In this document: one piece after another, positions 24,868-30,118 of the stretch
Position numbering within the stretch: the first letter of the stretch is position 1
Layout: each line of letters starts with the position of its first letter
Source of the DNA: a virus
DNA length: 30,118 nt
Virus record (IMG/VR): IMGVR_UViG_3300023174_000490
Span: 1-30,118 of that record
Direction: 5' to 3' (one strand)
Notes under the pieces: generated by a model
Told to the model about the DNA's origin: nothing
What the model saw: the letters and a program-made list of their open reading frames with translations, nothing else
Databases searched by the model: none
Position numbers and translations under genes: made by a program

Positions 24868-25029
24868 TCAATCAATAATTACACAGGTGATATGATCGCC
24901 TTCAAAGAACACGTAATAGCTAACACGCCCACACACAACGACCCAGCATCGATTAGCCGGGTAAACGTCGATGTTGTTGCCGAAGCGCGTGGTGATGGCT
25001 TGAAACTGAGCGGTGGTAAGGTCAGGCAT
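24868..25029 (-). CDS. Small protein, unknown (53 residues)
   Basis: ATG at 25029 with AGGAA 8 bases upstream encodes 53 residues: MPDLTTAQFQAITTRFGNNI, then a beta-like NRCWVVVCGRVSYYVFFEGDHITCVIID. It reads as a compact helix-plus-beta-sheet protein. It is transcribed divergently from the HTH gene at 25170. A promoter-like TATACT with an upstream TTGCCA lies just before it, next to a perfect operator-like dyad. The frame is open further upstream, but that extension crosses the promoter. The function is unknown; position suggests an early or regulatory protein. Confidence 0.65.
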   Translation of the reverse strand: MPDLTTAQFQAITTRFGNNIDVYPANRCWVVVCGRVSYYVFFEGDHITCVIID

Positions 25030-25056: not shown

Positions 25057-25087
25057 AGTATAGCGCATGCTGTGACCGATCTGGCAA
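25057..25087 (-). promoter_or_regulatory. Probable divergent promoter for the 53-residue gene
   Basis: Minus strand: TTGCCA (25087-25082), 19-base spacer, TATACT (25062-25057). The -10 matches 5 of 6. The spacer is long, so the promoter may need an activator. Its -35 box directly abuts the AAGACC/GGTCTT dyad at 25088-25111. Confidence 0.5.
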
Positions 25088-25111
25088 AAGACCACACAAA
25101 ATGTAGGTCTT
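25088..25111. promoter_or_regulatory. Operator-like dyad, copy 1 (perfectly symmetric)
   Basis: AAGACC (25088-25093), 12 bases, GGTCTT (25106-25111). The arms are perfect reverse complements. It sits between the -35 boxes of two divergent promoters. The last TT is the start of the plus-strand -35 box. The same arrangement recurs at three other promoters in the window. Confidence 0.65.
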
Positions 25112-25139
25112 GACGTGACTGGTTTTTGTGCTTTATACT
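25110..25139 (+). promoter_or_regulatory. Sigma-70-like promoter for the small HTH gene
   Basis: TTGACG (25110-25115), 18-base spacer, TATACT (25134-25139); each box matches 5 of 6. The predicted +1 near 25146 leaves a leader of about 24 bases with AAAGGA before ATG 25170. The operator-like dyad copy 1 overlaps the -35 by two bases. Confidence 0.75.
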
Positions 25140-25169
25140 ACGTCATCGGATCAACAAAGGAACCTTGAT

Positions 25170-25346
25170 ATGTCAAAACTCAGTGATCTTAGCGTGCAAA
25201 TTCAGGAAATGCTGGAATCAGGCATGGAACCCGAAACTATTGCACGCGTGCTGGAAGTGCCGGTATCGTGGGTGTTTGTGGAACTGGACCTGGAACAGGA
25301 AGATTCTGCAAATTGGTATAACCCTAATCCCCGATTTGATTGGTAA
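25170..25346 (+). CDS. Small HTH-type DNA-binding protein (58 residues)
   Basis: ATG at 25170, with AAAGGA about 9 bases upstream, encodes 58 residues. A short helix pair (LSVQIQEMLESGMEPETIAR) is followed by VLEVPVSWVFVEL, which has the spacing of a helix-turn-helix (ETIARVLEVPVSWV). The C-terminus is acidic with NWYNPNPRFDW. Such small HTH proteins are frequent in environmental phages, but no specific function is known to me. It is the first plus-strand gene from the divergent control region and may be a regulator. Confidence 0.75.
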   Translation: MSKLSDLSVQIQEMLESGMEPETIARVLEVPVSWVFVELDLEQEDSANWYNPNPRFDW

Positions 25347-25351
25347 CTAAC

Positions 25352-25564
25352 ATGGACTATACTCTGCTGCAAACCCGTGAACTGGCGGGCATCTTCTCAG
25401 ACTACTACAAAGACGTGCACGGCATCCGCCCTCGTTGGGTTGACCACACGGACCGTGGGGTTTTGATGGCAGGGTTGACGGCGCTGGATGATTACATGGC
25501 ACACATGCGCAGTACACCCGAGGGGCGTGAGCAATTGCAGGAGGATGGCTGGATTCTGGATTAA
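25352..25564 (+). CDS. Conserved-looking small phage protein, unknown (70 residues)
   Basis: ATG at 25352, five bases after the stop of the HTH gene, encodes MDYTLLQTRELAGIFSDYYK, then DVHGIRPRWVDHTD and a helical C-terminus. The YYKDVHGIRPRW pattern is like that of small uncharacterised proteins I associate with many tailed phages. An upstream TTG start would overlap the previous gene. The ribosome binding site is weak, so it is probably translated by coupling. An intrinsic terminator follows directly. Function unknown. Confidence 0.75.
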   Translation: MDYTLLQTRELAGIFSDYYKDVHGIRPRWVDHTDRGVLMAGLTALDDYMAHMRSTPEGREQLQEDGWILD

Positions 25565-25569
25565 GCAAA

Positions 25570-25594
25570 AGCCCCACCAACTGTGGGGCTTTTT
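25570..25594 (+). terminator. Intrinsic terminator after the first early operon
   Basis: AGCCCCAC (25570-25577) and GTGGGGCT (25583-25590) form an 8-bp stem with a 5-base loop. It is followed by TTTT on the plus strand and preceded by AAAA. It lies 5 bases after the TAA at 25564. Confidence 0.9.
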
Positions 25595-25620
25595 AGCGCC
25601 AAAATTATATCATATAATTT
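25595..25620. repeat. Intergenic cassette copy A: (A/G)GCGCC box plus AT-rich inverted repeat
   Basis: AGCGCC (25595-25600) is followed by AAATTATAT (25602-25610), a central C, and ATATAATTT (25612-25620), perfect 9-base arms. Directly before it is a hairpin (the terminator), as in the other copies. Beyond it, TAGGTG/CACCTA with a TTTT loop near 25648 echoes the TAGGTGCTTT block of later copies. Confidence 0.6.
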
Positions 25621-25694
25621 CGGGCCAGCGCAAGAACTTTTTTCTAGGTGTTTTCACCTATGGCAACCTGGCAGGCACTAGGCGAGAATACCGC

Positions 25695-26075
25695 ATGGAT
25701 CAAAAAACACTTCTCGCACTGGCCCACAAAACCGTGGCCACCACCTGGGCGAACCTGGCTAGGGTTTACCCGGGGTTGACCGAACCCTGCCCCATAGTGA
25801 TGCTTAACTCACGTTTGAAGACTACCGCAGGCCGCAGCTTTTACACTCAGAGAAAAATTGACCTGTCAACACAATTGTTTACAGAACATCCGTTTCACTT
25901 TGTGCAGGACACAATTCCGCATGAGGTTTGCCACCAAGCGGCATGGGATCTTTTTCAAGAAAAAGGCCACGGCGAGCCGTGGCGGCGTGTTATGATCTCA
26001 CTTGGCATCCAGCCTAGTCGATGCCATCAAATGACTAACACACTTTGGGAAGCTCAAAAAGCTAACCGCCGATAA
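25695..26075 (+). CDS. SprT-like zinc metalloprotein (first copy)
   Basis: A 126-residue protein from ATG 25695 (MDQKTLLALAHKT). The zinc-binding HExxH is HEVCH at about residue 77, in DTIPHEVCHQAAWDLF. It is followed by GHGEPWRRVM, giving the third His ligand as in SprT/Spartan-type domains. The length is that of a bare SprT-like core. The C-terminal CHQMTN lacks a full zinc ribbon. The frame is open upstream to 25488, but that extension runs through the terminator and repeat. SD near the ATG is weak (AGGCGAG further upstream). SprT-like domains cleave DNA-bound proteins in Spartan; the role in phages is not established. A second, distinct copy lies at 28087-28419. Confidence 0.8.
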   Translation: MDQKTLLALAHKTVATTWANLARVYPGLTEPCPIVMLNSRLKTTAGRSFYTQRKIDLSTQLFTEHPFHFVQDTIPHEVCHQAAWDLFQEKGHGEPWRRVMISLGIQPSRCHQMTNTLWEAQKANRR

Positions 26076-26076
26076 T

Positions 26077-26262
26077 ATGGAAAATTTCCCTTCACTCTTG
26101 GCAGTCGGTGGCGCGTGGTTTTGTGCCCTGGGTTTTGTGCTGCCTGGCATCATATGTTTTTTGGCCAGCTCATTCTGGAGCATATTCTGTGATGATGATT
26201 GCAGCGTATATTCTCTGGCGTTTCTGTGTGCTAACTTGGTTGCATTTTTCAGGCTGACGTAA
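26077..26262 (+). CDS. Small membrane protein, unknown (61 residues)
   Basis: ATG 26077 follows the SprT stop (TAA 26073-26075) after one base. The protein has a hydrophobic stretch at residues about 7-35 (LLAVGGAWFCALGFVLPGII) and another near 44-58, with CDDDC between. It could be a two-pass membrane protein. There is no clear ribosome binding site, so coupling is needed. Other short frames cross the second half, so this reading is uncertain. TAA at 26260-26262 is followed by the next ATG after one base. Function unknown. Confidence 0.45.
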   Translation: MENFPSLLAVGGAWFCALGFVLPGIICFLASSFWSIFCDDDCSVYSLAFLCANLVAFFRLT

Positions 26263-26263
26263 T

Positions 26264-26347
26264 ATGATCTGGAGTATGATTCTGGTTTCCATGCTGGCCA
26301 GCACGCCGCTGGTGCTTGTGATGATTATGGTAAAGGAAACACAATGA
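26264..26347 (+). CDS. Tiny membrane peptide, unknown (27 residues)
   Basis: ATG 26264 to TGA 26345-26347 encodes MIWSMILVSMLASTPLVLVM followed by a short polar end (IMVKETQ), a single hydrophobic span. It begins one base after the previous stop and ends as ATGA with the next gene, so it fits an operon of coupled genes. There is no clear SD. No function can be given. Confidence 0.45.
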   Translation: MIWSMILVSMLASTPLVLVMIMVKETQ

Positions 26348-26577
26348 AAAACTCTCGTGTACGCTTGCGGTATGAAATTCTGGAAACTCCGGGCTTGAAA
26401 CCCAGCACTGTATCTGCGGAAGAATTCCGCAGAAAGTTTCAAGGATCTACTGCAAAAGTAAATCCAAAACAATATACCGGTGATCAAATGCTGGGCGTGG
26501 CCACCATGCACAAATCAAATGCGGTTCCTGTGTTTAACCAGGACGCTGCCCGAGATATTTCAAACATGCGCAGATAA
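26344..26577 (+). CDS. Small basic protein, unknown (77 residues)
   Basis: ATG 26344 with AAAGGAAAC upstream encodes 77 residues: MKNSRVRLRYEILETPGLKP, a helix with EEFRRKFQGST, and a C-terminus DAARDISNMRR. It is basic, with no cysteine and no membrane span. It overlaps the preceding tiny peptide by 4 bases, and the repeated hairpin cassette follows its stop almost directly. I do not recognise a family. Confidence 0.7.
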   Translation: MKNSRVRLRYEILETPGLKPSTVSAEEFRRKFQGSTAKVNPKQYTGDQMLGVATMHKSNAVPVFNQDAARDISNMRR

Positions 26578-26578
26578 T

Positions 26579-26625
26579 AATAAGGGGAAACCCTTATTGG
26601 CGCCAAAAATTTGTAGGCGCACCCC
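26579..26625. repeat. Intergenic cassette copy B: AATAAGGG hairpin and GGCGCC box
   Basis: AATAAGGG (26579-26586), loop GAAA, CCCTTATT (26591-26598), then GGCGCC (26599-26604) and AAAAATTT; a second GGCGC follows near 26616. It begins two bases after the stop codon of the upstream gene. Same order as copies C and E. Confidence 0.75.
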
Positions 26626-26683
26626 GCACTGTTAGTATACCCTAAAAAACAGCTGAATCCGGCCTGGGTGGCAAAAATATCTC

Positions 26684-26735
26684 TAGGTGCTTTCCCTAGC
26701 TAGTGGGCCTGGCCGACCTGTGCTAGCACAAGACC
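26684..26735 (+). repeat. Direct repeat upstream of operator copy 2
   Basis: Positions 26684-26712 are identical over 29 bases to 28795-28823 (beginning TAGGTGCTTTCCCTAG and ending GGGCCTGG). The similarity continues through TGTGCTAGC to AAGACC at 26730-26735. The block contains CTAGG/CCTAG and GTGCTAGCAC palindromes. Confidence 0.85.
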
Positions 26736-26754
26736 CTGCCTGGTGTAGGGTGTT
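26730..26754 (+). promoter_or_regulatory. Operator-like dyad, copy 2
   Basis: AAGACC (26730-26735), 13 bases, GGTGTT (26749-26754). One base longer than the other copies. The last TT overlaps the start of the -35 box at 26753, as in copies 1, 3 and 4. Confidence 0.55.
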
Positions 26755-26781
26755 GCCCGCCTGGTCAACCTGTGCTATTAT
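26753..26781 (+). promoter_or_regulatory. Sigma-70-like promoter for the HAD phosphatase gene
   Basis: TTGCCC (26753-26758), 17-base spacer, TATTAT (26776-26781). The -10 matches 5 of 6 and the -35 4 of 6. Predicted +1 near 26788, about 22 bases before ATG 26810. Confidence 0.65.
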
Positions 26782-26809
26782 CGGTGCTTCACACAAACAA
26801 GGCTACAGC

Positions 26810-27283
26810 ATGAAAACAGTTTCTCGGGTTCAGGTTTATGACATGGACGGCACTATTGTTTGCAGTTTGCATCGGTATCGTACCATTATTGGCCCAGATA
26901 ATATCGAACGCATTGACCTGCCATACTGGCGCGAGAATGAGTATCGTGCAGGCGACGATAGTCTGCTGCCCCTTGCCATGCAATATAAGCAGGATTTGCA
27001 GGATGAAAACTGCTATGTAATCGTCGCCACTGCGCGAGTATTGAATTCACCCGATCGCAAATTTATTCGGGAAATTTTGGGTCTGCCGGATGCCATCGTC
27101 TCGCGTCCCGCAAACGATTCACGTTCGGGTGGTTTGCTCAAAGTATTGGGTTTGCGCAAGTATTATCAAGCATTCCAGTCTGCGGATTGGTGCTTTTATG
27201 AGGATAATGCAACCTATCTCAAAACGGTTTGCGACTATTTCAATATCCGGGGCGTTTACGTTCCCAGCAAACAGGGTCATTAA
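26810..27283 (+). CDS. HAD-superfamily phosphatase, possibly polynucleotide phosphatase-like
   Basis: A 157-residue protein from ATG 26810 (MKTVSRVQVYDMDGTIVCSL), with AAGG about 10 bases upstream. HAD motif I is DMDGT at about residues 11-15, motif II is IVATAR, a Lys is in LLKVLGLRK, and the acidic motif IV is FYEDN. The order and spacing are complete for a small cap-less HAD phosphatase. Single-domain HADs of this type in phages resemble the 3'-phosphatase half of polynucleotide kinase, but no kinase domain is present, so the substrate is unknown. It has its own promoter with operator copy 2. The upstream extension of the frame lies in that promoter and is not translated. Confidence 0.8.
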   Translation: MKTVSRVQVYDMDGTIVCSLHRYRTIIGPDNIERIDLPYWRENEYRAGDDSLLPLAMQYKQDLQDENCYVIVATARVLNSPDRKFIREILGLPDAIVSRPANDSRSGGLLKVLGLRKYYQAFQSADWCFYEDNATYLKTVCDYFNIRGVYVPSKQGH

Positions 27284-27291
27284 CTCTACAC

Positions 27292-27320
27292 TTTACAGGG
27301 GCTTTGTTCCCTGCTAGAAT
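27292..27320 (+). promoter_or_regulatory. Sigma-70 promoter for the exonuclease operon
   Basis: TTTACA (27292-27297), 17-base spacer, TAGAAT (27315-27320); each box matches 5 of 6. It lies between the HAD gene stop and the exonuclease ATG at 27387, with no AAGACC dyad upstream. The leader of about 60 bases contains GC-rich inverted repeats (GTTGCTCAAC, CGCGGTGGCGG). Confidence 0.7.
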
Positions 27321-27386
27321 CTGTTTTGTTGGGCGTGTTGCTCAACCCGCGGTGGCGGTTCCACCAGGCAACCTAGGGTAAACCTC

Positions 27387-28085
27387 ATGGCCAAAAAGCA
27401 ATACTTCGCAATTCTCGATACTGAAACCACCATGGAAAATACCGTGGCTGATTTGGGTATTATTATCTGTGACCGTCAAGGCAAGATTTATAATCAAATG
27501 GCAGTTTTGATTAACGGTCATTATGGCACGCATGAATTGTTCCACGACAAACATGCTAATGACATTTGGGGTTATGGTGGACTGGAAAAGCGGAAAACCG
27601 CTTATTGCAATATGCTGGATTCTGGCACTCGCATGCTGGCATCGGTTAATGCCATCAACCGTTGGATTCAGCAGGCCATCGGCAAATATAATCCCCAATT
27701 GACGGCATATAATCTGAGTTTCGACAAGGATAAGTGTGTGAATACTGAGATTGATTTGTCGGGGTTTTCTAGCTCATTCTGTTTGTGGCAAGCTGCCGTT
27801 GGTAACATCTGCAATACCAAACAGTATAAACAGTTTGTGCTTGACAATCACGGTTTCAACACTCCCACGGGTCACGGCAATATGTCGATGAAAACTACCG
27901 CAGAAATGGTGGCAGGGTTTATCGGTGGCGAGTTTAAGGCAGAACCACATACTGCGCTGGAGGATGCCCGAGATTTTGAGCTGCCAATTCTGGTGGAGAT
28001 TCTGAAGAAAAAGAAATGGCAAGATAAAATCACCCCTTATGTGTGGCGTGATTTTCAGGTGAAGAATCATTACTCGGTGAAATAA
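27387..28085 (+). CDS. DnaQ-like DEDDh 3'-5' exonuclease
   Basis: A 232-residue protein with all exonuclease motifs of the DEDDh family: ExoI ILDTETT (Asp and Glu, residues about 10-12), ExoII TAYNLSFDKDK (Asp near 112), and ExoIII HTALEDARD (His near 193, Asp near 198). It would remove nucleotides 3' to 5' from DNA or RNA in the cytoplasm. There is no polymerase domain. ATG 27387 has AGGG about 10 bases upstream, and the frame begins cleanly there. One base separates its stop from the next gene, a second SprT-like protein, so they are one operon. The role in phage replication, repair or host nucleic acid turnover is open. Confidence 0.9.
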   Translation: MAKKQYFAILDTETTMENTVADLGIIICDRQGKIYNQMAVLINGHYGTHELFHDKHANDIWGYGGLEKRKTAYCNMLDSGTRMLASVNAINRWIQQAIGKYNPQLTAYNLSFDKDKCVNTEIDLSGFSSSFCLWQAAVGNICNTKQYKQFVLDNHGFNTPTGHGNMSMKTTAEMVAGFIGGEFKAEPHTALEDARDFELPILVEILKKKKWQDKITPYVWRDFQVKNHYSVK

Positions 28086-28086
28086 T

Positions 28087-28419
28087 ATGCACGACCTTAT
28101 CCGTCAAACGATAGGGCTTCTCCAGCTGGAGAAGCCCTATAAAATAGTATTGAAGCCCAGGTTAAAGGGTAATGCTGCCGAGTATTATCAAATGGTCAGG
28201 CAGGGCAAACTGGTTTCGCATTTAATCCGGGTTAGCGTGGACAATCTGCACACTGATTCCCGGTGTTTGAATACCCTGATAGTTCACGAGTTTATTCATG
28301 CTTGGCAGGCCGAGAATGGTATTGTGGAGATTCACGGCCGAGAATTCAGGAAACAGGCTAAAGCATTGGGCAACGTATTAAACCTGGAAAACATTTATAT
28401 TAAAGGGGTTGACAAATGA
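28087..28419 (+). CDS. SprT-like zinc metalloprotein (second copy)
   Basis: A 110-residue protein with HEFIH at about residue 67 (TLIVHEFIHAWQAENG) and a third ligand in EIHGREFRKQ, the SprT pattern HExxH with a later HGxxF. Upstream helices and a strand (LIRVSVDNL) match the fold. It differs in sequence from the copy at 25695-26075 and is not a recent duplicate. It begins one base after the exonuclease stop and ends in a 4-base overlap with the next gene. It could cleave proteins bound to DNA during phage replication, but this is inference from Spartan. Confidence 0.8.
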   Translation: MHDLIRQTIGLLQLEKPYKIVLKPRLKGNAAEYYQMVRQGKLVSHLIRVSVDNLHTDSRCLNTLIVHEFIHAWQAENGIVEIHGREFRKQAKALGNVLNLENIYIKGVDK

Positions 28420-28601
28420 CTGTTACTTATGAAATTGTGTGGACAGAATCCGGTTCCGATATTATCGAGGATGTATATGTGGATGGTATCGAAGATATTA
28501 AAACTGCCCAAGGCTTGCTTCACAAGATTAATACTAATGCAATATACGATGGCCAAGATTGGATTCCGCGGATTCTAAAAGTAACCGAGGAATTTATTTA
28601 A
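28416..28601 (+). CDS. Small acidic protein, unknown (61 residues)
   Basis: ATG 28416 overlaps the TGA of the SprT-like gene as ATGA. The 61-residue product (MTVTYEIVWTESGSDIIEDV, then IKTAQGLLHKINTN, ending VTEEFI) is acidic with an alternating beta-alpha-beta look. It ends the exonuclease operon, and the next sequence is the large hairpin array. No family recognised; it may work with the SprT-like protein by operon pairing. Confidence 0.7.
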   Translation: MTVTYEIVWTESGSDIIEDVYVDGIEDIKTAQGLLHKINTNAIYDGQDWIPRILKVTEEFI

Positions 28602-28614
28602 TATTAACCAGGCG

Positions 28615-28732
28615 AATAAGGGTTTACCCTTATTCGGGCGCCAATTTTACCAGTAAAATTGGGGCCGCGTCAAGCGGCCTGGCCATTGTTTTTTCCAATG
28701 GCCGCCTGGCAGACCATAGGCACAGCCTATGG
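28615..28732 (+). repeat. Five consecutive hairpins, including intergenic cassette copy C
   Basis: In order: AATAAGGG (28615-28622) with CCCTTATT (28627-28634); then GGCGCC at 28637; CCAATTTTAC (28641-28650) with GTAAAATTGG (28653-28662); GGCCGC (28663-28668) with GCGGCC (28674-28679); GGCCATTG (28681-28688) with CAATGGCC (28696-28703); CCATAGG (28714-28720) with CCTATGG (28726-28732). All arms are perfect complements. It starts 14 bases after the stop at 28601. Confidence 0.85.
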
Positions 28733-28736
28733 GCCG

Positions 28737-28757
28737 GGCGCCAAAATTATACACTGT
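28737..28757. repeat. Intergenic cassette copy D: GGCGCC and AT-rich half repeat
   Basis: GGCGCC (28737-28742) followed by AAAATTATACACTGTAAA, close to the start of copy A (GCGCCAAAATTATA). The preceding CCATAGG/CCTATGG hairpin stands where copies B, C and E have the AATAAGGG hairpin. Confidence 0.55.
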
Positions 28758-28794
28758 AAAACCGCAGAATCTGGCCCGGGCCAAAAATAAAGCA

Positions 28795-28846
28795 TAGGTG
28801 CTTTCCCTAGCTAGTGGGCCTGGTCGAATTGTGCTAGCGAAAGACC
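28795..28846 (+). repeat. Direct repeat upstream of operator copy 3
   Basis: The first 29 bases are identical to 26684-26712; the next 23 are similar (TGTGCTAGC, then AAGACC). With copy 2 this shows that the whole promoter-upstream unit was duplicated, not just the short dyad. Confidence 0.85.
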
Positions 28847-28864
28847 CCACAAAAAATAGGTGTT
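28841..28864 (+). promoter_or_regulatory. Operator-like dyad, copy 3
   Basis: AAGACC (28841-28846), 12 bases with an A-tract, GGTGTT (28859-28864). The final TT overlaps the -35 box at 28863. The arms match at 5 of 6 positions. Confidence 0.6.
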
Positions 28865-28891
28865 GCCTGGCGCGCTGGAATCGGTTATTAT
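28863..28891 (+). promoter_or_regulatory. Sigma-70-like promoter, first of a tandem pair
   Basis: TTGCCT (28863-28868), 17-base spacer, TATTAT (28886-28891). The -10 matches 5 of 6, the -35 3-4 of 6. Predicted +1 near 28898. Confidence 0.6.
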
Positions 28892-28962
28892 TCTTTTGTC
28901 GGTTGTTCAGACAGTTCTTTAAAAACACGCACGATTCAGGCCACGTCGGGATGACGCTGCCA

Positions 28963-28986
28963 AAGACCCCTAAAAAAGTAGGTGTT
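28963..28986 (+). promoter_or_regulatory. Operator-like dyad, copy 4
   Basis: AAGACC (28963-28968), 12 bases with an A-tract, GGTGTT (28981-28986). The final TT overlaps the -35 box at 28985, the same phase as the other three copies. Confidence 0.6.
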
Positions 28987-29013
28987 GACACAGAATCAAA
29001 AGTGACTGATAAT
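28985..29013 (+). promoter_or_regulatory. Sigma-70 promoter directly before the 112-residue HTH gene
   Basis: TTGACA (28985-28990), 17-base spacer, GATAAT (29008-29013). The -35 is perfect and the -10 matches 5 of 6, making it the strongest of the four dyad promoters. Predicted +1 near 29020, 65 bases before ATG 29085. Confidence 0.85.
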
Positions 29014-29084: not shown

Positions 29085-29423
29085 ATGGCTCAAGCTAAAA
29101 CCGTGGTTGTGAACTACACTGCCGAACAAACCGCCCAGGTGGTTGCCGACTATCAAGCCGGTGTCACCGTGGAAACCATCGCGGAAAACATGGGCAAAAC
29201 CGCCCGTTCGATTATCGCGAAACTGTCTCGCGAAGGTGTTTACAAGGCTAAGGTTTACAAAACCAAGACCGGCGAAACCGTGGAAAAGAAGGATCAAACC
29301 GCCGATGCCATCGGCGCAGTGTTGAAAATGTCGGAATCGGAGATTGAATCTCTCACCAAGGCAAATAAAACTGCCTTGCGCAAGATTTTTGCCGCTCTGG
29401 CCAATAGCAAGCCGGTTTTATAA
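29085..29423 (+). CDS. HTH DNA-binding protein, candidate early regulator
   Basis: A 112-residue protein from ATG 29085, with AAAAGGA 10 bases upstream. The N-terminal half holds an HTH: TAEQTAQVVADYQAGVTVET, then IAENMGKTARSIIAKLSREG, whose second helix has the Arg/Ser/Lys pattern of a recognition helix. A basic linker (VYKAKVYKTKTGETVEKK) and a helical C-terminus (SESEIESLTKANKTALRKIF) follow. The HTH resembles small phage proteins related to sigma-factor region 4 or resolvase-type HTHs. Two tandem dyad-promoters (copies 3 and 4) drive it, which suggests strong, controlled expression and possible autoregulation (inference). Confidence 0.8.
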   Translation: MAQAKTVVVNYTAEQTAQVVADYQAGVTVETIAENMGKTARSIIAKLSREGVYKAKVYKTKTGETVEKKDQTADAIGAVLKMSESEIESLTKANKTALRKIFAALANSKPVL

Positions 29424-29503: not shown

Positions 29504-29713
29504 ATGTCGGGGTTTGACCGTGATTACTTGGTGGCGGTTGGTGCTTACGGGCGTGATGCCACTGAAAAGGATTGGCAGGCCGGAAAAGATTTTCAAGTAA
29601 AGGGCGGCCCGTACTTTTCAATCCGTGATTGCGAAACCATCAAGCAGGAGGGGGTTTCGCAAATCATTTTCTATAACCGCCAGGGTTATCTGGCTTTTGT
29701 AAAGGACCTGTAA
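29504..29713 (+). CDS. Small protein, unknown (69 residues)
   Basis: ATG 29504 has GAGGA about 8 bases upstream and encodes MSGFDRDYLVAVGAYGRDAT and onward. The pattern is beta-rich: DYLVAVGAYGR, FQVKGGPYFSIRD, SQIIFYNRQGYLAFV. The stop shares a base with the next ATG at 29713 (TAATG), so the two are coupled. No family recognised. Confidence 0.75.
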   Translation: MSGFDRDYLVAVGAYGRDATEKDWQAGKDFQVKGGPYFSIRDCETIKQEGVSQIIFYNRQGYLAFVKDL

Positions 29714-30075: not shown

Positions 30076-30118
30076 AATAAGGGTAAACCCTTATTTGGCG
30101 CCATTTTACCACGTAAAA
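30076..30118. repeat. Intergenic cassette copy E (runs off the window)
   Basis: AATAAGGG (30076-30083), loop TAAA, CCCTTATT (30088-30095), GGCGCC (30097-30102), then ATTTTAC and GTAAAA, the beginning of the AT-rich inverted repeat. Same order as copies B and C; the rest lies beyond the window end. Confidence 0.75.

Follow-up and report, generated by a model that had tools for sequence, protein, structure and literature searches.

An upstream element at probable early promoters of uncultivated T5-like phages, in two positions relative to the -35 box

What does a short dyad do that stands in one register with the -35 box of four promoters in a phage early region: does it serve a repressor, or does it help RNA polymerase? 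We addressed this question in the 30-kb virus record IMGVR_UViG_3300023174_000490, whose full 30,118 bases are called the window here; the record is probably a fragment, and its source, judged from the sequence, is an uncultivated T5-like phage. An initial annotation had described four plus-strand dyads of this kind, each sharing its last TT with a -35 box, and this was borne out. The pattern AAGACC-N10-16-GGTSTT occurs at four places in the window, all on the plus strand, and gives five strand-hits, copy 1 matching itself on both strands; the chance expectation is 0.04, and none of 100 shuffled sequences reached five strand-hits. In all four copies the final TT of the dyad is the opening TT of a TTG -35 box, and a plausible -10 box follows after 17-18 bp.

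Copy 1 (AAAGACCACACAAAATGTAGGTCTTG, 25087-25112, dyad 25088-25111) has divergent genes on either side, carries a perfect outer dyad and ends in the -35 TTG (25110) of promoter 1 (TTGACG, 18 bp, TATACT; 25110-25139, -10 box at 25134-25139). The divergent, minus-strand promoter-like site that faces it (25057-25087; TTGCCA at 25087-25082, 19 bp, TATACT at 25062-25057) is weak, having a 19-bp spacer, and its phase differs from that of the plus-strand promoters. Copy 2 (CAAGACCCTGCCTGGTGTAGGGTGTTG, 26729-26755, dyad 26730-26754) has N13 spacing and leads into promoter 2 (TTGCCC, 17 bp, TATTAT; 26753-26781, -10 box at 26776-26781). Copy 3 (AAAGACCCCACAAAAAATAGGTGTTG, 28840-28865, dyad 28841-28864) is nearest to the family consensus and precedes promoter 3 (TTGCCT, 17 bp, TATTAT; 28863-28891, -10 box at 28886-28891), and copy 4 (AAAGACCCCTAAAAAAGTAGGTGTTG, 28962-28987, dyad 28963-28986) precedes promoter 4 (TTGACA, 17 bp, GATAAT, then AGATTCAT; 28985-29013, -10 box at 29008-29013). 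The A-tracts annotated in copies 3 and 4 are indeed there, and are long; copy 1 additionally has AAAA, and copy 2 has no A-tract. A sequence model built from 30 copies of the element ranked the four copies as its top matches in the window, three of them at E<=2e-5 (copy 3, 3.8e-8; copy 4, 2e-5) and copy 2 weakly (0.08). It found no further good copy there (next best E 0.17) and nothing comparable among the late genes, which span 24 kb. Two stretches, 26684-26736 and 28795-28847, form a 53-nt repeat of 91% identity that extends into copies 2 and 3, and the promoter spacers downstream of it differ, a sign of promoter-cassette copying.

The conserved unit is larger than the two 6-bp arms first proposed. 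Over 38 distinct copies it reads AAWRACCYYACAAAAAATARG and takes in the former spacer, whose ACC, C11, A-tract, TA and G are among the most conserved bases. The strongest positions of AAWRACCYYACAAAAAATARG-NN-TTG are A2, A5 C6 C7, C11, A13-A15, T18 A19, G21 and T25; A5 C6 C7 and G21 reach 1.8-2.0 bits, which are upper bounds because the 38 copies were partly picked by likeness to the consensus. The flanks AAWRACC and GG are retained even where the A-tract has been lost, as in copy 2, at 35651 of G001, the nearest relative, and at the loci L156, L164 and L177.

We found the element to be conserved in relatives. G001 (93.8 kb) has all four sites and a fifth, the five standing at promoters within an early region of ~7 kb. 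Copy 1 is 100% identical there (29545-29571), copy 2 has an orthologous copy, and promoters 1, 2 and 3 are conserved. When copies 1 and 4 are aligned to this genome, the conserved block begins near the left edge of the element and runs into the promoter, with more divergent sequence upstream; for copies 2 and 3 conservation reaches somewhat further upstream. Another relative, whose terminase is 73% identical (G029, the same as L339 and L213), has six copies at early promoters, each ahead of a TTG and a -10 box and including equivalents of the promoters of the phosphatase-like gene and of P0001 described below; the model matched seven sites in it, six of them at promoters, and most other carriers have one or two. 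Two of the outcomes that could have undone the initial annotation, lack of conservation at equivalent promoters in relatives and many copies at random positions, were looked for and not found, and the observation stands: the site is real, of a kind that proteins bind, locked in phase with the -35 box in the window and conserved.

The element also appears to be confined to these phages. Since the loose pattern AAGACC-N-AGGTGTTG gave mostly single chance hits over IMG/VR, a longer core consensus was used instead. Over all IMG/VR it occurred in only 24 contigs, 20 of which are promoters of this kind, and in 257 Gb of bacterial genomes it gave 20 hits, none at a recognisable promoter. These results indicate that the element belongs to this T5-like phage family; the 20 bacterial hits, several of which are one repeated Prochlorococcus stretch, speak against a host regulon. 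A 75-nt element query returned short chance matches only from the isolated phage records, and the region has no nucleotide relatives among 50,697 of them, in agreement with the earlier statement that no described phage operator is known to have this sequence. At L205:2035-2055 and L207:2325-2345, copies of the element lie without a -10 box beside ACAGGACACAGGACACAGG repeats arranged in tandem, close to where the early region begins divergently.

A further claim that found no support is that of a single phase with the -35 box, since the same core is found 11-13 bp further up in relatives. At the family loci the core 13-mer lies 0-4 or 11-15 bp ahead of TTG and rarely elsewhere. A less biased scan of IMG/VR asked for the bare 13-mer followed by TTGACA within 0-30 bp, taking the first 120 matches per scan and removing near-identical sites. 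Among the matches listed, those with a -10 box comprised 25 sites at 0-3 bp and 21 at 13-15 bp from TTGACA, with ~15 spread over the other 24 positions (~0.6 per position), whereas those without a -10 box had a flat distance distribution. A reversed control gave four sites, none at a promoter. The upper class consists almost wholly of leftward promoters of the family, TTGACACGGGCC...TATAATTTTGGCGCC, often with the AATAACCC flank kept. There the right arm is clear of the -35 box, and its sequence, GTTATT, mirrors the left arm; in positions 22-26, 36 of 40 cells match the left-arm mirror where 18 are expected, in sites that are related by descent. Dyad symmetry seems real in part: it is perfect in copy 1 and visible in the shifted class, and shows no pairwise excess in the class at the -35 box. 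A leftward promoter-like palindrome, TTGACACGGGCC-AAAATTATATGATATAATTTTGG-CGCC, also lies between early genes of the window (25593-25625 and 28636-28664) and is widespread in relatives; its -10 box is within the inverted repeat, and its orientation opposes that of the early genes.

We propose, at about even odds, that the four sites belong to an upstream promoter element peculiar to this family of T5-like phages, which would act positively, through the C-terminal domain of the alpha subunit (alpha-CTD) of the host RNA polymerase together with a dimeric protein on the flanks. The core YACRAAAAATARG would be an A-tract comparable to the one in T5 early promoters, with AAWRACC as its left flank and, where the -35 box leaves room, the mirror image GGTYWTT as its right flank. 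Always placed ahead of a phage sigma70-type promoter, the element would centre its A-tract near -45, as in the four window copies, or one helical turn higher, near -56, as in relatives. The A-tract would then serve as an UP-type (upstream element) site for the alpha-CTD, and a dimer bound to the flanks on the same DNA face would help hold the polymerase. Since copies without an A-tract still have the flanks, these are likely to be read by a second protein, probably a dimer. After a shift by one turn a protein still contacts the same DNA face, as would be natural for the alpha-CTD or an activator, whereas a repressor has no need of it, so that same-face contact with the polymerase fits two such sites better than repression does.

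The favoured candidate for the flank-binding protein is a small D5-like helix-turn-helix (HTH) protein, whose gene is the one most often next after the element. In the window this is P0001 (112 amino acids, 29085-29423, plus strand), which matches phrog_323, 'transcriptional regulator, D5-like', at E 1.7e-5 over the N-terminal part of the D5 family only. Its AlphaFold2 model has three N-terminal helices (13-24, 29-36 and 40-49) in an HTH-like arrangement at low overall confidence (predicted template modelling score 0.45). Such a gene follows the element within 450 bp in 14 of the 20 contigs in which the bare pattern had picked out a promoter; the D5-like gene played no part in finding these contigs, and a genome of ~90 open reading frames (ORFs) has only a handful of genes of this kind. 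It is from this association that we infer binding of P0001 to the element. Judged by their predicted proteins, the family genomes carry an expanded set of small D5-like regulators: alongside one full D5 homologue (~250 amino acids) most have several genes for small D5-like HTH proteins, which cluster in the early region, as at 34443-34769, 37178-37399 and 37677-37877 of G001 and similarly in G007-G023, and all the large relatives searched have the full D5 plus small ones.

Several observations weigh against this proposal. The shifted sites nearly all belong to one promoter family (TTGACACGGGCC...GGCGCC) and so lack independence, and inheritance may account for their GTTAT flank. The 14 contigs with a D5-like gene include many that are near-identical, and reduce to about six independent groups. 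A fold search with the P0001 model gave no significant match in the PDB. The HTH of P0001 (GK[ST][VA]RS[IV][VI]AKLSRE) is nearly invariant, also where the P0001 promoter lacks the element, so that co-variation of helix and site is uninformative.

It is possible, though we consider it clearly less probable, that only the A-tract matters, as a pure UP element for the alpha-CTD, and that the AAWRACC and GG flanks are inherited through copied promoter cassettes. T5 early promoters have an A-tract at the same place, and cassette copying is visible in the 53-nt repeat before copies 2 and 3. Moreover, among the matches listed, some of the sites that have a -10 box and a core 0-3 bp from TTGACA come from unrelated phages and lack the flanks, as a general A-tract of the UP type would. 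However, the high information at A5 C6 C7 and G21 and the flanks that outlast the A-tract at the five places named above speak against an A-tract that acts alone.

The repressor that the initial annotation had offered as one reading, a dimeric phage protein, perhaps small and D5-like, that shuts early promoters including its own from the dyad, now seems unlikely. Its appeal is that each of the four window copies has a dyad overlapping the -35 box, that the D5-like gene next to the element in 14 of 20 contigs would suit autoregulation, and that the shifted class has mirror symmetry. Yet the shifted sites lie wholly upstream, one helical turn off, and would leave the -35 box uncovered; a protein there would not block the polymerase by its position at every promoter, and blocking needs no strict choice between two phases. 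Still further from the data is the idea that the arms are those of an RNA or DNA hairpin derived from family terminators (AAAGACCCCAC...GTGGGGTCTTTT), which we regard as highly improbable. Such terminators do have the same 5' arm (L125 2294, L207 1006), and dyads with different arms occur at other promoters of relatives. The arms nevertheless pair no more often than by chance, with 154 pairs against 154.7 expected in an arm-shuffle test over the 38 copies (p 0.64), which makes a hairpin kept by compensatory change improbable; a U-tract is absent, copy 4 lies ~60 bp into what promoter 3 would transcribe, and copy 1 is between divergent genes. A protein dimer may still be compatible with this lack of excess pairing, as half-sites may vary independently.

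The co-varying dyads that had suggested a hairpin, a reading that the arm-shuffle test largely refuted for the four-copy element, stand at promoters before another non-coding region of the relatives. They are inverted repeats of 8-12 bp around the -35 box (L129:7330-7365, L132:7739-7775, L135:7297-7332, L161:11687-11722, L185:7579-7612, L202:11833-11868), with arms that differ wholly between relatives and are still complementary (GGGTCAGA/TCTGACCC, GGGGGCTGCAA/TTGCAGCCCCC, GGGGAGAAGAA/TTCTTCTCCCC); unlike the four-copy element, they look like a co-varying structure. The region behind them contains a conserved non-coding element, GGGYGACAGCGG, a variable hairpin, then CGTCTTAATTGTGG...CCGAGCCACAGCCC, present in at least 55 DNA stretches of the family, all examples lying outside the window (L161:11666-12075, L404:130-280, L195:7575-7725). 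It looks like an undescribed structured RNA: Rfam gave nothing above threshold except, in L404, a tRNA next to it, there is hardly any variation in the predicted helices, and the variable hairpin appears to co-vary.

The gene content of the window places the four promoters. Its leftward genes encode the large and small terminase, the major tail protein and the tape measure protein; the large terminase shares 46% identity with its counterparts in T5-like Vibrio phages, and IMG/VR holds many protein-level relatives of the phage. Rightward genes start after position 25,000. Downstream of copy 1 is an ORF of 58 amino acids (25170-25346, plus strand) that is HTH-like by eye only and had no match in family searches. 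Copy 2 precedes P0004 (157 amino acids, 26810-27283, plus strand), a phosphatase-like gene and distant relative of the deoxynucleoside-5'-monophosphatase gene dmp. In T5, dmp sits in the left terminal repeat among the pre-early genes; in the window, the dmp-like gene sits in the region of the element. Because both this gene and the D5-like P0001 are in the rightward region, the four promoters are probably pre-early or early, and the dmp-like gene is suggestive of activity early in infection from first-transferred DNA. The early region also has a small SprT-like metallopeptidase gene (28087-28419; Pfam PF10263, above the cut-off), and hairpin-like palindromes AATAAGGGTAAACCCTTATT without a U-tract recur behind early genes (26579-26598, 28615-28634 and 30076-30095).

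How T5 switches between gene classes with the host sigma70 polymerase has been described as unknown in mechanism (PMC7472727). A bolder version of our proposal, which we hold to be doubtful, is that the missing transcription switch of T5-like phages lies in these small D5-like HTH proteins, which would bind as dimers to the 26-bp dyad in either of its two positions, one helical turn apart, and recruit host polymerase to pre-early promoters, including their own. With an element that stands at named promoters, occurs in two helical phases and is linked to the gene for a small D5 relative, part of the T5 question becomes testable and would need just one protein and a short piece of DNA. The fixed lock of the dyad on the -35 box has dissolved, and the two-phase distribution and the D5 link remain notable; the element also provides a signature by which to recognise promoters of a large group of T5-like phages that has yet to be cultivated.

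Among the known systems close to the element are dyads bound by protein dimers beside the -35 box, such as the sites of lambda CI at PRM and of P2 Ogr (TTGT-N12-ACAA near -55). They share with the element a dyad with N12 between its arms, upstream of or overlapping the -35 box, and differ from it in sequence. For the D5 regulator of T5 we know of no target site; P0001 resembles its N-terminal part and lacks the rest.

The promoters themselves are of the T5 type. Early and pre-early promoters of T5 (N25, T5P1 and others) have sigma70-type boxes and an A-tract just before TTG, as the element promoters do, with an A-tract in three of the four window copies. At -10 to -7 from TTG, A is found in 26-33 of 38 T5 early promoters. 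N25 (TATAATAGATTCAT), which was located in T5 records, has AGATTCAT behind its -10 box, as has the promoter of copy 4, and in the pre-early promoter T5P1, which reads CTGCAAAAAATAGTTTGACA, CAAAAAATAG directly adjoins TTGACA. Unlike the element promoters, T5 lacks the AAWRACC...GG flanks, and the shifted position was not seen in the T5 region scanned; over the first 80 kb of the T5 genome, a stretch with the left terminal repeat and 38 annotated promoters, the element model had no match.

Compared with UP elements, the likeness is in position and the difference in sequence. The UP consensus AAAWWTWTTTTNNNAAA has neither conserved flanking C/G nor a dyad, whereas AAWRACCYYACAAAAAATARG has conserved C/G and no T-tract. 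UP subsites have reported centres at -42 and -52 (PMC2412878). UP elements are A-rich at two positions separated by roughly one turn of the helix, much as the two classes of the element are, whose sites use one position or the other. An A/T-rich tract at about -38 to -59 of a sigma70-type promoter, the hallmark of an UP element, is present at -12 to -7 from TTG in copies 3 and 4 and in the consensus, though not in copy 2. We found no earlier description of the element, which combines T5-type promoters and an A-tract in the UP position with a sequence distinct from the UP consensus.

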